From positions 1 through 64,000 of the IMG/VR virus record IMGVR_UViG_3300029914_000023: a stretch of 64,000 nt of DNA, one strand, 5' to 3'. Position 1 is the first letter of the stretch; every line of letters begins with the position of its first letter. Shown here piece by piece: positions 32,034-42,249 of the stretch. Below the pieces are notes generated by a model that saw only the letters and a list, made by a program, of their open reading frames with translations, was not told the DNA's origin and did not search any database. This stretch comes from a virus. A program made the translations under genes and the position numbers.

Positions 32034-33260
32034 CTATTCCTGCTCGTTCGTCCATCCCTCCGGGCCACAAGGCTGAAACAGTAGGCCATCGTACAGAACA
32101 AGAGAGCCGGGTCGGTCTGCGCCGCCCTCTGCTACTCGAACTCTCAGGATATTGCGCACCCGCTCGTTGATGATCTGGCCTTGGGGAACACGCCAAACAT
32201 ATCGTGTGCCCTGCACTCCAGTGCGGATGGTGTTACAGCGGATATGCGGGTCCCACTGACGACCAGACCGACCCCAGATAGTGACGTGAGAACCACGATC
32301 ACCCGTAGGGAAGGGCTGCCAAGAACCCGCCTGAAGCGGTGTCCCTCTATCACGAACAGCTTGCCGCAATTCGGCCCGCTCTTCCGTAGTCGGAACTCGT
32401 GTTGGATTGTTCGTGAAGGACATGTACAGTCCCTCAATCTCGAAGACAGTTGGAGACATTACTGTTGGTGTCTCCCGCTCCGCTCTAGCCGCATCCTCGC
32501 GGGCCTTCTCCTCCTTCCAATGAGGGTCTTCCTTCACCGGTTGTACTTTCCACACGTTCCGCAAGTCGCGGTCCGGCTTCACACTGAGCTTCTTCCCCAG
32601 CATACCGGCTCCGAGAATCCAGTCCACGTCGTCATCCTTGTGACGGAATCTCTCGAAGAACGCTTGCAACTTCTTGGAGGACGGCTCTAACGCCGAACCG
32701 AGAACGGCTCTGGGCGCTTCGGGGTCCACCATAATCAGCTTGGTGCCGATCAAGCACAGCTTCGTCACCCGCTGAGAGAACAACCACGAAGGCATAGTCC
32801 GATACTCGAAGTGACCATGCTCCGTGCGAATGTCGCCATAGTGTCCATACGTGCTACGCCGACGCTCAACGCACTCTGTCTGAGGCAGAATGTCCAGCCC
32901 CTCCAGATGCTGCGTGAACAAATCCAATGCGTCACGTTGTGCCTTCGTACAAGAAGGCCGGTCCACATGAACGTGACCGCCAAGCGTGATAGTCCGCTCA
33001 GGTGCATGAATCCACGCACCAGCCCGCCACTTCCCAGTCGGGGTGACGGTTGCAAAATCATTGAAGGAAACCTTGAGGTTCTGAATCAACTTGCGAACAG
33101 AGAACTCCGGCTTCGGGTGCGGCTCGATAACCCAGTTGCTGTGGTCCAGGCCCCACGGAACATTCATCTCCGGTCGGCCCGTGAACTGCTTGATGTGACC
33201 TTCCTCAACCACGATGAACTCCGGGTCAGCACCCAGAAGGAAGTCATTTAACAAAGGCAT
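32034..33260 (-). CDS. Phage COOH-NH2 ligase (amidoligase), paralogue 1
   Basis: 408 residues from MPLLNDFLLGADPEF. Family hallmarks are LGADPEFIVV, GGHVHVD, and HFEYRTMPSWL, the conserved core of GCS2-like COOH-NH2 ligases. The C-terminal 150 residues are a separate beta-rich domain (SHVTIWGRSGRQWDPH; RYVWRVPQGQ). These ATP-dependent enzymes join a carboxylate to an amine. Two further paralogues lie at 36832 and 40918, with a glutaminase and an ATP-grasp ligase between. Earlier comparative genomics predicted peptide-tagging or cell-wall modification for such sets; the substrate here is unknown. Confidence 0.75.
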   Translation of the reverse strand: MPLLNDFLLGADPEFIVVEEGHIKQFTGRPEMNVPWGLDHSNWVIEPHPKPEFSVRKLIQNLKVSFNDFATVTPTGKWRAGAWIHAPERTITLGGHVHVDRPSCTKAQRDALDLFTQHLEGLDILPQTECVERRRSTYGHYGDIRTEHGHFEYRTMPSWLFSQRVTKLCLIGTKLIMVDPEAPRAVLGSALEPSSKKLQAFFERFRHKDDDVDWILGAGMLGKKLSVKPDRDLRNVWKVQPVKEDPHWKEEKAREDAARAERETPTVMSPTVFEIEGLYMSFTNNPTRVPTTEERAELRQAVRDRGTPLQAGSWQPFPTGDRGSHVTIWGRSGRQWDPHIRCNTIRTGVQGTRYVWRVPQGQIINERVRNILRVRVAEGGADRPGSLVLYDGLLFQPCGPEGWTNEQE

Positions 33261-33834
33261 GACGTAGCGTCCTCGTAATCCGCTCCCATTTACGCGAGAG
33301 TGTCTGTTGAGGAATCCCCAAAGTCTCAGATGCTTCCTGTTGGGTCTTCCCCTGCAAAGCAAGCTCCTCGAAAATCTCGTAGTCTTCCGTACTTAGAAGC
33401 TGCTCTACTGTCAGCAGAACATCCATAAGCTCGGGACTGGAGTCCCCCGGAAGATCAAACCCCGGAACATCCAGAGAGACTTCTTTTCTCCGGCGCTCCA
33501 AACGGCGCTGATCGTACATGACCCCCATCATAATACGATGCACCCATGTAGTGAACAGGCTCTCCCCCCGGAACGTCTCCAGGTTCATCATCACCTTGTC
33601 CACCGCCTCCGTCAGCAAGTCCGGGTCCGACTTGCGAAGGATAACGTACATTACAGCCTGAGCGTGCTGCTCCAGAATGGTTCGCAACTCGTGCTCGATG
33701 GTCTCTTGAATGGGACCGCCGTCAGCCTTCTTGAGCCACTGGTCGTATAGATAGTTCTCAAGGTCGCGCCGGATGTCCTTAGAGTCCAGACCAGGATCGT
33801 CCGTAAGCACCGCCGACAGATTCGTAACATTCAT
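33244..33834 (-). CDS. ECF-like sigma factor
   Basis: 196 residues from MNVTNLSAVL (GAGGGAG upstream). Region 2 is about 60-118: DLLTEAVDKVMMNLETFRGESLFTTWVHRIMMGVMYDQRR, the typical ECF F-x-G-x-S-x-x-TW stretch. Region 4 is about 145-194: LLSTEDYEIFEELALQGKTQQEASETLGIPQQTLSRKWERI, a helix-turn-helix. There is no region 1.1 or 3. It probably directs RNA polymerase to the four GGGTA/CGTCTAA promoters in this genome. It overlaps the next gene downstream by 17 bases. Confidence 0.85.
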   Translation of the reverse strand: MNVTNLSAVLTDDPGLDSKDIRRDLENYLYDQWLKKADGGPIQETIEHELRTILEQHAQAVMYVILRKSDPDLLTEAVDKVMMNLETFRGESLFTTWVHRIMMGVMYDQRRLERRRKEVSLDVPGFDLPGDSSPELMDVLLTVEQLLSTEDYEIFEELALQGKTQQEASETLGIPQQTLSRKWERITRTLRHAFVK

Positions 33835-34159
33835 CACAGACTCCCTCGACCCGGTGACTTGAGCACACGGGTAAGCCGCAGATGTCGCAGGCTTTAACAA
33901 ACTTGTCAGACTGGCAACGAGCGCAAGATTCCTTGTCTACCGCAACGAGCACAGGACCATTGTTGATCCACTTCTCGAAGCACTGAAGGCAAGTCCACAC
34001 GGGGTCACGAGCCACGTAGTTGTTGTTGTAGATCGTGTAGTATGGAACCGGCTTCACGGTCCCATGCTCGGAGCAGATAATCAGGTGCTCCTCTCTCCCT
34101 TGCGAATAGCGAGTAACCTCACCGTTCGCCTTGCAAAAGTGCGCGATGCGGAATGGCAT
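33779..34159 (-). CDS. Multi-zinc-finger protein
   Basis: 126 residues with CxxC pairs at CLQC, CARC, CDIC and CDEC plus HLIICSEH. Four likely zinc sites suggest a nucleic-acid or protein adaptor. The end overlaps the sigma gene by 56 bases, so it may be a translational partner, for example an anti-sigma or adaptor; no direct evidence. Confidence 0.65.
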   Translation of the reverse strand: MPFRIAHFCKANGEVTRYSQGREEHLIICSEHGTVKPVPYYTIYNNNYVARDPVWTCLQCFEKWINNGPVLVAVDKESCARCQSDKFVKACDICGLPVCSSHRVEGVCDECYESVGGAYGRSWSGL

Positions 34160-40603: not shown

Positions 40604-40942
40604 TTATTCTGCCCAGCGTCCGTCGTAGTTCTCCCAACTTTGCCAGCCACGGCGATAGTTGGGATACGACGGTATCCCCCGCTCAGCAGTTACCTTGTCC
40701 TCGGCAGTATCCGCACGCAAATCAGTGAGACAGGACTTCTTGCCGCAGTACAGGTAAGAATCTGAAGACTTCGTTGTCACTGGCGCACCACACGCGCACT
40801 TGTGACTCGTCACGATAATTCCACGCCCCTTACACAGGGAGCAAGTTGAGAACAGCCCCGTGTGTGGGGAGAATACTCGACCATTTGCACACACGGAGCA
40901 CCGTTCATATTCGTACTTTACTTCGTCGGAAGCCGCCTGCAT
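40604..40942 (-). CDS. DnaJ-type zinc-finger protein
   Basis: 112 residues from MQAASDEVKYEYERC. CSVCANGRV...CSLCKGRG resembles a DnaJ Cys-rich repeat; CACGAP and CGKKSC form another pair. It overlaps the start of the third amidoligase's C-terminal region. Probable zinc-binding adaptor. Confidence 0.65.
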   Translation of the reverse strand: MQAASDEVKYEYERCSVCANGRVFSPHTGLFSTCSLCKGRGIIVTSHKCACGAPVTTKSSDSYLYCGKKSCLTDLRADTAEDKVTAERGIPSYPNYRRGWQSWENYDGRWAE

Positions 40943-42249
40943 AACGCTCTCCACGTCGCGCTCATCCCATTGGACTCACCCGACCAAGGGCCTTCCAGCA
41001 CCCAGTTGCGTTCCACATCCTCGAAGTTCGGGAGCACAGCCTCGATGCCGCCCTCCACGATCATCTTGAATGCCCGCTCGCTGTTCGCATCACGAGTAAC
41101 GCCGTCATTGGCGAGCAACGTGTAGAACATCGACATGTGTTTGGTCACATATTCGCGTGCTGCTTTCACGTCGCAGAAGTTCACGATGTCACGAGCCGCC
41201 TGCTCGTCGATGTCAAGGTGGCTCCGATAGCCCGCCTTGCCCACCTTCAAGCCCGACCGCACGAGGTTGAGGACCAGATGCGCCACTTCAGGAGCCGCCA
41301 GCCACGCATTCGACAGGACTCGATACTCCAATCCGTGCTTCGGCTTGCGATACTCACCGGCCCGGCCATAGAACTGCCGACGAACCGGAGTGTCCAGCGA
41401 AGCGAACATCGCCACCGCAGGAATCGCAGCAATCACATCACACGCCCGGACCATCTCAGCCGCATCCTCATCGTTCAGAGGCGCGATGCCAAAGTGAACA
41501 TGCCCGCCAGCAAAGCGCAAGCGGAAGTCCCGTGCCGCCACCGGAAGCTCAGGGTTATCGCCATACGCATTCAGCGAAGGCATACAGCCCAAAGCGATGT
41601 CCTCGTCAGCCGCGCTGTTCATCGTGATGGCCGGAATGGTGAACGTGTTCTTCACCGTAAGCTGTGCCGTCCGATCAAATGCGCGAGCCGCCTTGATGAC
41701 ACTGTTGAGGCCATCCCGCAGATAATTGATGAGATAGCCGTGGCAATGCACCGGATGAATGTAGCATTCCGCTGCGAAGCCATCCCGATAGGAGTACGCC
41801 GTCAACCGGGAATCAATCGATCCGAACGAGGGCTTGATGTGGCTGTACTTCTTCTGCTGTTCTTCCTGCTTCGGAAGATACTTGAACGCTGGTAGCAAAG
41901 ACTTATGGACCTTGCCACGAACCACGAAAATCTCGGGGTCACTGCCAGTGCAGGAGTTGATCCGCTGTGACACGGACATGATATAACGGTCCTGCGGAAC
42001 TTCCGCCTGATCGTACACACGCACCTGCTGCCGGACGCTGTAACCCTTCCAGCGATAGTTCGGGTTCGCGGGATGCAGGGTGAGCGGCGAAGAAAGGTTC
42101 GCCAAGTTAAAAATCTCCCCCTGCTTCAACGTATACAGGGTGCCTACGGGTTGCCAGATTCTAAGATGGTCGCCCCAGCTTCCTCCGGGATTCGGCACAT
42201 CGAATACGGCACCCTCTTCCAGTTCGGTCCAGTCAATGTTACGCGACAC
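40918..42249 (-). CDS. Phage COOH-NH2 ligase (amidoligase), paralogue 3
   Basis: 443 residues, GTG start with GGAGGATAG 4 bases upstream. Motifs: CTGSDPEIFVV (about 92-102), AECYIHPVHCHGYL, AGGHVHFGIAP and HGLEYRVLSNAWL. An N-terminal beta domain of about 85 residues precedes the core. The family is ATP-dependent; three diverged copies in 10 kb suggest successive steps or different substrates. Confidence 0.75.
   Translation of the reverse strand: MSRNIDWTELEEGAVFDVPNPGGSWGDHLRIWQPVGTLYTLKQGEIFNLANLSSPLTLHPANPNYRWKGYSVRQQVRVYDQAEVPQDRYIMSVSQRINSCTGSDPEIFVVRGKVHKSLLPAFKYLPKQEEQQKKYSHIKPSFGSIDSRLTAYSYRDGFAAECYIHPVHCHGYLINYLRDGLNSVIKAARAFDRTAQLTVKNTFTIPAITMNSAADEDIALGCMPSLNAYGDNPELPVAARDFRLRFAGGHVHFGIAPLNDEDAAEMVRACDVIAAIPAVAMFASLDTPVRRQFYGRAGEYRKPKHGLEYRVLSNAWLAAPEVAHLVLNLVRSGLKVGKAGYRSHLDIDEQAARDIVNFCDVKAAREYVTKHMSMFYTLLANDGVTRDANSERAFKMIVEGGIEAVLPNFEDVERNWVLEGPWSGESNGMSATWRALCRRLPTK

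Follow-up and report, generated by a model that had tools for sequence, protein, structure and literature searches.

The window analysed here, bases 1-64000 of the 64,907-base IMG/VR virus record IMGVR_UViG_3300029914_000023, from a phage known solely through environmental DNA, carries on one strand a gene cassette encoding three ligases of family PF14395 (COOH-NH2_lig), termed A, B and C, a class II glutaminase (GATase) and a RimK-like ATP-grasp ligase. It is almost certainly a variant of a known phage cassette. While the kind of system is already known, its three-ligase form is new, with B standing where other phages have an Amidoligase_2 ligase and with ligase A added together with a protein termed P9. 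The best explanation overall, to which we give an even chance, is a three-ligase variant of the tailed-phage cassette for amide or peptide bonds that acts early and modifies a host molecule. The five enzymes are encoded as follows.

40918..42249, minus strand: ligase C, a classical phage COOH-NH2 ligase type 2 of 443 amino acids with about 100 extra N-terminal residues; PF14395, 51.3 bits.
36832..38325, minus strand: ligase B, a PF14395 paralogue of 497 amino acids, directly upstream of GATase in the Amidoligase_2 slot; PF14395, 71.4 bits.
35780..36832, minus strand: class II glutaminase (GATase) of 350 amino acids, with no synthase domain and with a C-terminal zinc ribbon; PF13522, 58.9 bits (cut-off 27).
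35007..35780, minus strand: RimK-like ATP-grasp ligase of 257 amino acids; phrog_2599 (ribosomal protein S6 glutaminyl transferase family), 1.4e-20.
32034..33260, minus strand: ligase A, a third PF14395 paralogue of about 408 amino acids counted from an ATG at 33260; PF14395, 72 bits.

An initial annotation, made from the letters of the window, had named three COOH-NH2 ligases on the strength of GxDPE(F/I) and GGHVH motifs occurring three times. All three genes exceed the curated PF14395 cut-off of 25 bits, and each ligase has a single copy of both motifs (GADPEF in A, GSDPEF in B, GSDPEI in C). A whole-record search recovered the same three genes and no fourth, and none of 14 control genomes matched PF14395. 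Alignments of orthologues (n = 28 for C, 21 for B, 15 for A) show complete or almost complete conservation of GxDPE, the Glu that follows it, HxH, an Arg and ExR, so that active-site residues are intact and not missing from any of the three. We take GxDPE, HxH and ExR to be the metal- and ATP-site-like signature of the ligase superfamily, the roles of single residues being presumed from family knowledge. The open reading frame (ORF) of ligase A extends to a TTG at 33362; because the Met of ATG 33260 is invariant in a 10-row alignment, the latter is most likely the true start.

Ligase C matches phrog_3815 (1.4e-32) and 306 of 50,697 phage records (tblastn, E <= 0.01). Neither A nor B matched any of the 50,697 named phage records (tblastn, E <= 0.001), and initial single-protein scans gave one relative for C, none for B or GATase and no usable locus for A. 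Among bacterial genomes, 45 pattern matches to B were obtained, none of them a relative, in a search limited by its two peptide patterns. At the DNA level, the island had no match in the phage collection. Relatives were fetched from IMG/VR, 80 loci with a C-seeded profile and 17 with an A/B-seeded profile. The set of loci with C (n = 83) consists of the best 80 of 504 ligase C relatives minus the near-duplicates L035 and L040, of L111 (from the A/B profile alone), three reference phages and the window. Each locus spans at most about 21 kb, and absence is local except where the whole record was searched; whole-record searches (PF14395 and PF12224) covered 50 IMG/VR records, that is, 44 of the 80 C loci, five other A/B loci and the window's own, and such records are possibly fragments. 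Gene-profile counts refer to a 28-locus set that includes reference phages and truncated contigs. Throughout, rows from one phage lineage are not independent.

Fifteen of the 50 records, window included, have the genes on one strand in the order C, ZN1, ZN2, P9, B, GATase, ATP-grasp, sigma, A, p84, where ZN1 and ZN2 are small Cys-rich proteins, sigma is a sigma-factor-like gene and p84 a small conserved protein. The exceptions among these 15 are few: the sigma-like gene was not found in L125 and lies elsewhere in L127, and three gave no match to p84. GATase is present in 27 and ATP-grasp in 26 of the 28 loci. The genes are therefore tightly linked in related phages and not scattered. Three separate PF14395 genes occur in 18 of the 50 whole records, 15 of these 18 in the order C, B, A. 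The initial annotation had stressed three diverged paralogues in one phage; diverged they are, but 18 of 50 selected records show that they are not peculiar to one. It had also described all genes as overlapping on one strand. The single strand stands, as does the overlap of P9, B, GATase and ATP-grasp (one nucleotide each for B/GATase and GATase/ATP-grasp in the window), but 594 bp (40010-40603) separate ZN1 from ZN2.

The slot that B occupies, immediately before GATase, is the Amidoligase_2 slot of C-first loci. Of the 83 loci with C, 48 have Amidoligase_2 without B, 21 have B without Amidoligase_2, and none has both; in three more the only second ligase is A-like, and the pieces of the other 11 contain none. 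The whole-record search agrees: PF12224 (Amidoligase_2) matched 16 of the 50, and the 21 that carry B gave no match. In profile-profile comparison, the probability for B is 98.1% with C, 100% with A and 0.4% with Amidoligase_2. Because B and Amidoligase_2 lack profile similarity, B at the Amidoligase_2 position is, as judged from these profiles, a replacement by a non-orthologous ligase. The alternative that B is a distant Amidoligase_2 was rejected at that value of 0.4%, although the two may have a common superfamily fold. On the tree of C, the switch between B and Amidoligase_2 took at least two changes; it is thus a rare event inherited by related phages, and the 21 loci do not count as independent cases. 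The interchange of Amidoligase_2 and B would mean that carboxylate-amine ligase activity matters at this position, not one protein family.

A structure model of B (predicted local distance difference test score, pLDDT, 84.1; predicted template modelling score 0.85) finds its best structural match in YbdK (Z 14.9 over 223 residues, root-mean-square deviation 3.0 Å). Further matches are Dop (Z 14.4), a plant glutamate-cysteine ligase (13.8), PafA (13.3), E. coli GshA (12.8) and glutamine synthetase (about 10.5), and Foldseek likewise returned YbdK at the top, then glutamine synthetases and glutamate-cysteine ligases. In a viral structure library, the top match was the COOH.NH2 ligase of Salinivibrio phage CW02, with amidoligases ranking lower. 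On account of the matches to YbdK, Dop, PafA, glutamate-cysteine ligase and glutamine synthetase, B is predicted by its modelled fold to be a carboxylate-amine ligase. It has in common with this superfamily the fold and the GxDPE, HxH and ExR signature, but sequence identity is only about 10% and the matches leave residues after about 353 uncovered. Searches of solved structures by sequence gave no match for C or for profile A5, and three chance-level matches for profile A4.

In a 67-row tree, the first-position ligases (C) form one clade (100/99), as do the 21 B rows (96/99); 14 A rows form a clade (98/95), with one further A unresolved beside it. Both the tree and the profile comparison place A and B closer to each other than either is to C. 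Because each ligase has a separate, or nearly separate, clade, the tree indicates that A, B and C are old paralogues inherited jointly, and excludes a recent duplication.

The glutaminase had been proposed from its MCGIAGV start and an added zinc ribbon, and both are borne out. The protein matches the GlmS glutaminase domain 1xff (E 1.2e-14), conserves Cys2 of MCGIAGV, R83, H108-N109-G110 and D131, and ends in a C-x2-C...C-x2-C tail. For the ATP-grasp ligase, which had likewise been named, the phrog_2599 match agrees, whereas Pfam RimK scores below its cut-off (14.9 of 21 bits); RimK structures are matched at E 0.018-0.02. Its conserved residues are E135, R137, K151, D203, E222 and N224; each of E135, K151, D203, E222 and N224 is present in 100% of 26 rows. 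As with the ligases, we assume the roles of the conserved residues in both proteins from family knowledge.

The start of GATase is unusual in relatives. In 7 of 22 (L119, L127, L129, L132, L133, L134 and L136), the codon before the catalytic Cys is not ATG, GTG or TTG but ATC (five), ATT (one) or ACG (one), mostly preceded by a conserved GGAGGGTAGCTAT-like leader. Five of the seven have no in-frame ATG, GTG, TTG or CTG from the stop to the Cys. This looks like a conserved non-AUG start, perhaps with a role in translational control.

The remaining members of the cassette are smaller proteins and the sigma-like gene.

40604..40954, minus strand: ZN1, a small Cys-rich (zinc-ribbon-like) protein of 116 amino acids beside C; own profile in 22 of 28 loci.
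39371..40009, minus strand: ZN2, 212 amino acids with two Cys-rich finger-like motifs (motif alignment); 22 of 28 loci.
38313..39359, minus strand: P9, 348 residues; 16 of 28 loci (own profile, alignment).
34726-35076, 34160-34489 and 33779-34159, minus strand: small, poorly conserved ORFs in the interval from ATP-grasp to sigma.
33244..33900, minus strand: phage sigma-factor-like protein; phrog_1740 RNA polymerase sigma factor, 7.7e-14; start possibly internal.
31716..31970, minus strand: p84, a small conserved protein downstream of ligase A; 15 of 28 loci.

P9 accompanies ligase A. By profile it was found in 14 of 15 B-type loci having A, and the fifteenth, L118, has a 180-residue ORF in the P9 slot that by eye is a divergent P9. 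L131-L134 and L136, which are B-type, span both positions and lack A, have no P9 either; in these five loci, the gap between ZN2 and B is -1 to 12 nucleotides, too short to hold it, as against 481 to 2783 nucleotides in loci with A. The five form one B clade (100/96), so a single joint gain or loss of A and P9 explains the pattern, and A with P9 may represent one evolutionary event.

P9 itself consists of a conserved N-terminal domain (about residues 15-100, FPGxYPTR...YxGKP...EFDxxG), a non-conserved Pro-rich middle and a C-terminal helix. Conservation is confined to about 150 N-terminal residues, and several homologues (139-186 amino acids) are the N-terminal domain alone. The suggestion of the initial annotation that the Pro-rich 348-residue protein could be the target is rejected in that form, because the Pro-rich tail is not conserved and is absent from several homologues; P9 may still be a partner of ligase A. 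A structure model of P9 is weak (mean pLDDT 60.8) and had no PDB match at E <= 0.001.

Simpler cassettes are widespread: crAss-like phages carry them, as do lytic phages that infect E. coli, Pseudomonas and Vibrio; neither their chemistry nor their target is established in the literature found. The first paper on the phage cassette is reportedly Iyer et al. 2009. No description of a three-PF14395 cassette, of B replacing Amidoligase_2 or of the pairing of P9 with A was found in the open literature searched, which included neither Iyer et al. 2009 nor the full text of Hardies et al. 2013. A 'peptidoglycan modification cassette' has been described for phages of the RIO-1, phiEco32, LUZ24, PaP3, PA11 and CW02 type, with peptidoglycan as the hypothesised target (PMC5498523). 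A single operon of this type, as in the window, holds ligase C, a further carboxylate-amine ligase, a class II GATase and a RimK-like ATP-grasp. In phiEco32, the genes are ordered C, Amidoligase_2, GATase, ATP-grasp, plus a cyclotransferase, which gives the same slot order of C, second ligase, GATase and ATP-grasp. The window differs in that the second ligase is the PF14395 paralogue B, not Amidoligase_2, in the added ligase A, P9, ZN1, ZN2 and in-operon sigma-like gene, and in having no cyclotransferase. From the comparison, C, GATase and ATP-grasp emerge as the constant core; one position is interchangeable, held by either Amidoligase_2 or B, and A with P9 is an extra module that phages gain or lose as a pair. 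The interchangeable position narrows the possible reactions and indicates which enzyme pairs to test first.

The enzymes of the cassette very probably catalyse ATP-driven formation of amide or peptide bonds, as their families suggest. This was also the pathway put forward in the initial annotation; it is the obvious interpretation and in line with what has been predicted in print for the simpler cassette (PMC5498523). Because GATase has no synthase domain, it would need a partner, and the coupled B (elsewhere Amidoligase_2) is the likeliest. GATase would split glutamine and pass ammonia to B, with which it is translationally coupled (or else liberate glutamate for it); B would activate a carboxylate with ATP and then amidate it, an ammonia partnership that we consider equally likely to hold or to fail. 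Another carboxylate-amine bond would come from ligase C; since a gamma-glutamyl cyclotransferase occurs in many sister cassettes, this bond is probably gamma-glutamyl. The RimK-like enzyme would add an amino acid, and ligase A with P9 might carry out a further bond-forming step found only in the present phage group. The pathway might act on the cell-wall precursors of the infected cell, at their peptide stems, altering the cell surface or how sensitive the cell is to a second phage.

Expression of the cassette is probably early and aimed at a host molecule. In the accessible part of a report on phage HP1, the genes of a related cassette are expressed immediately (PMC7082346), a timing more in keeping with a host target than with a component of the virion. 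Peptidoglycan and the exclusion of superinfecting phages are favoured for the cassette (PMC5498523), a reading that recurs in the available portions of PMC10580990, PMC11318856 and PMC11945000. We rank peptidoglycan precursors first among targets, with proteins and metabolites behind, none of them reaching an even chance; a cell-wall precursor as the target is a tentative assignment. Missense changes in the amidoligase and GATase genes are common to two derivatives of phage FJK.R9 that were evolved in the laboratory (PMC11450229), and the available excerpt of that study thus places the cassette genes under selection, be it for or against their function.

Several points weigh against an early cassette that acts on a host molecule with B fed by GATase. 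The sequence does not reveal the target, and peptidoglycan is a published hypothesis and not a result; no biochemical evidence for phage PF14395 enzymes was found in the literature searched. As far as the same excerpt goes, the FJK.R9 mutations could mean that the cassette genes are dispensable in the laboratory. P9, ZN1 and ZN2 are without known function. The record of the window has no Amidoligase_2 by PF12224 and none by a sensitive own profile in six frames, and a six-frame search of the window gave no gamma-glutamyl cyclotransferase. Amidoligase_2 adjoins GATase in 32 of the 48 Amidoligase_2 loci, but in the other 16 GATase is beside C alone (11), beside neither (four) or not found (one), so the pairing of B with GATase is no rule for the whole class.

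A different possibility is that the ligases modify protein, putting amino acids or an amide on P9 as the substrate or adaptor of ligase A, or on a host ribosomal or RNA-polymerase protein, as RimK does on S6. This is unlikely, although it draws on several of the observations above: the ATP-grasp is nearest the S6 glutamate-ligase family by phrog_2599 and the RimK structures, the fold of B is as near to the Pup ligase PafA and the depupylase Dop as to small-molecule ligases, P9 accompanies A, and the sigma-like gene is coupled to A. However, P9 shows no conservation in its Pro-rich tail, and the simpler, far commoner cassette does without A, with P9 not found in Amidoligase_2-type loci. In the LysW/LysX amino-carrier and Pup/PafA tagging systems, an ATP-grasp or glutamine-synthetase-fold ligase works with small Cys-rich or other small partner proteins. 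The window resembles them in having such ligases with small (Cys-rich) partners, but ZN1 (22 rows), ZN2 (22), P9 (16) and p84 (15) have no conserved C-terminus of the Glu/Gln carrier type. This counts against Pup- or LysW-like carriers, and all four were excluded as such. A narrower proposal, that P9 is the dedicated substrate or adaptor of A in a private protein-conjugation module on the old cassette while B and the zinc-ribbon GATase make up a two-subunit, glutamine-fed ligase of glutamine-synthetase fold, seems quite improbable. We know of no characterised enzyme that pairs a GATase with a glutamine-synthetase-fold ligase as two subunits.

The cassette might instead serve small-molecule metabolism, making or salvaging a gamma-glutamyl or glutathione-like metabolite that helps the infected cell to keep its nitrogen or redox balance. 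We judge this improbable, slightly more so than protein modification. It would suit YbdK as the best structural match of B, with glutamate-cysteine ligases close, and the gamma-glutamyl cyclotransferase found in 10 of the 21 B-type loci. The authors who described phage ZRK32 argue for a role of such a cassette in nitrogen metabolism (PMC10945688), but in the available part of that paper the growth effect is not assigned to single genes. Two or three diverged ligases and several conserved Cys-rich small proteins also exceed what a metabolite needs. It is very improbable that the cassette hypermodifies nucleotides or DNA or adds some other anti-defence decoration. In favour, it shares a strand with the replication genes, and modified bases are conceivable substrates for ATP-dependent ligases; against this, the scanned window ORFs (part of all ORFs) include no base-modification gene, and the neighbouring genes in relatives belong to the same ligase set and do not encode DNA enzymes.

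Among the accessory genes, ZN1 has at least eight Cys in each homologue and no Pfam match. Eight of the 10 cyclotransferase-bearing loci have that gene between ZN1 and ZN2, the place of the 594-bp gap of the window, in which there is no convincing gene and no cyclotransferase remnant. The profiles of the ORFs at 34160-34489 and 33779-34159 match the window alone among the 28 loci. The sigma-like gene, which the initial annotation did not name, belongs to the conserved set and adjoins ligase A upstream in 13 of the 15 three-ligase loci; it scores 20.2 bits against Sigma70_r2, under the cut-off of 24.

Elsewhere, the window contains portal, terminase and DNA polymerase genes and an integrase-like protein at 19841-20707 (phrog_1, 9.2e-46). 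The phage is therefore possibly temperate, in contrast to the lytic phages described with the simpler cassette. Just upstream of the cassette, at 43197-44693, lies a TROVE/Ro60-like protein with a vWA domain (PF05731, 41 bits); it was considered as a cassette partner and rejected, occurring in only 7 of 50 related records and scattered among them. An RNA-ligase-like protein is encoded at 47311-48486 (phrog_968, 1e-27), and the window has five tRNA genes. L015, a distant phage with a cassette, has ORFs upstream of it that by eye encode a vWA protein (184-1338) and an RNA ligase (7514-8431), and an acetyltransferase-like ORF (GNAT, by eye) lies at 14004-14537 immediately 3' of its ATP-grasp. L029 and L030 (records G009 and G010; 452 and 433 kb) have two and three tandem PF14395 genes, with a separate Amidoligase_2 match far off. 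In L007, positions 2015-3067 hold a 350-residue ORF made up mainly of Ala plus Asp, Arg and Tyr, a low-complexity repeat that a Leu/Met-rich ORF overlaps in another frame.

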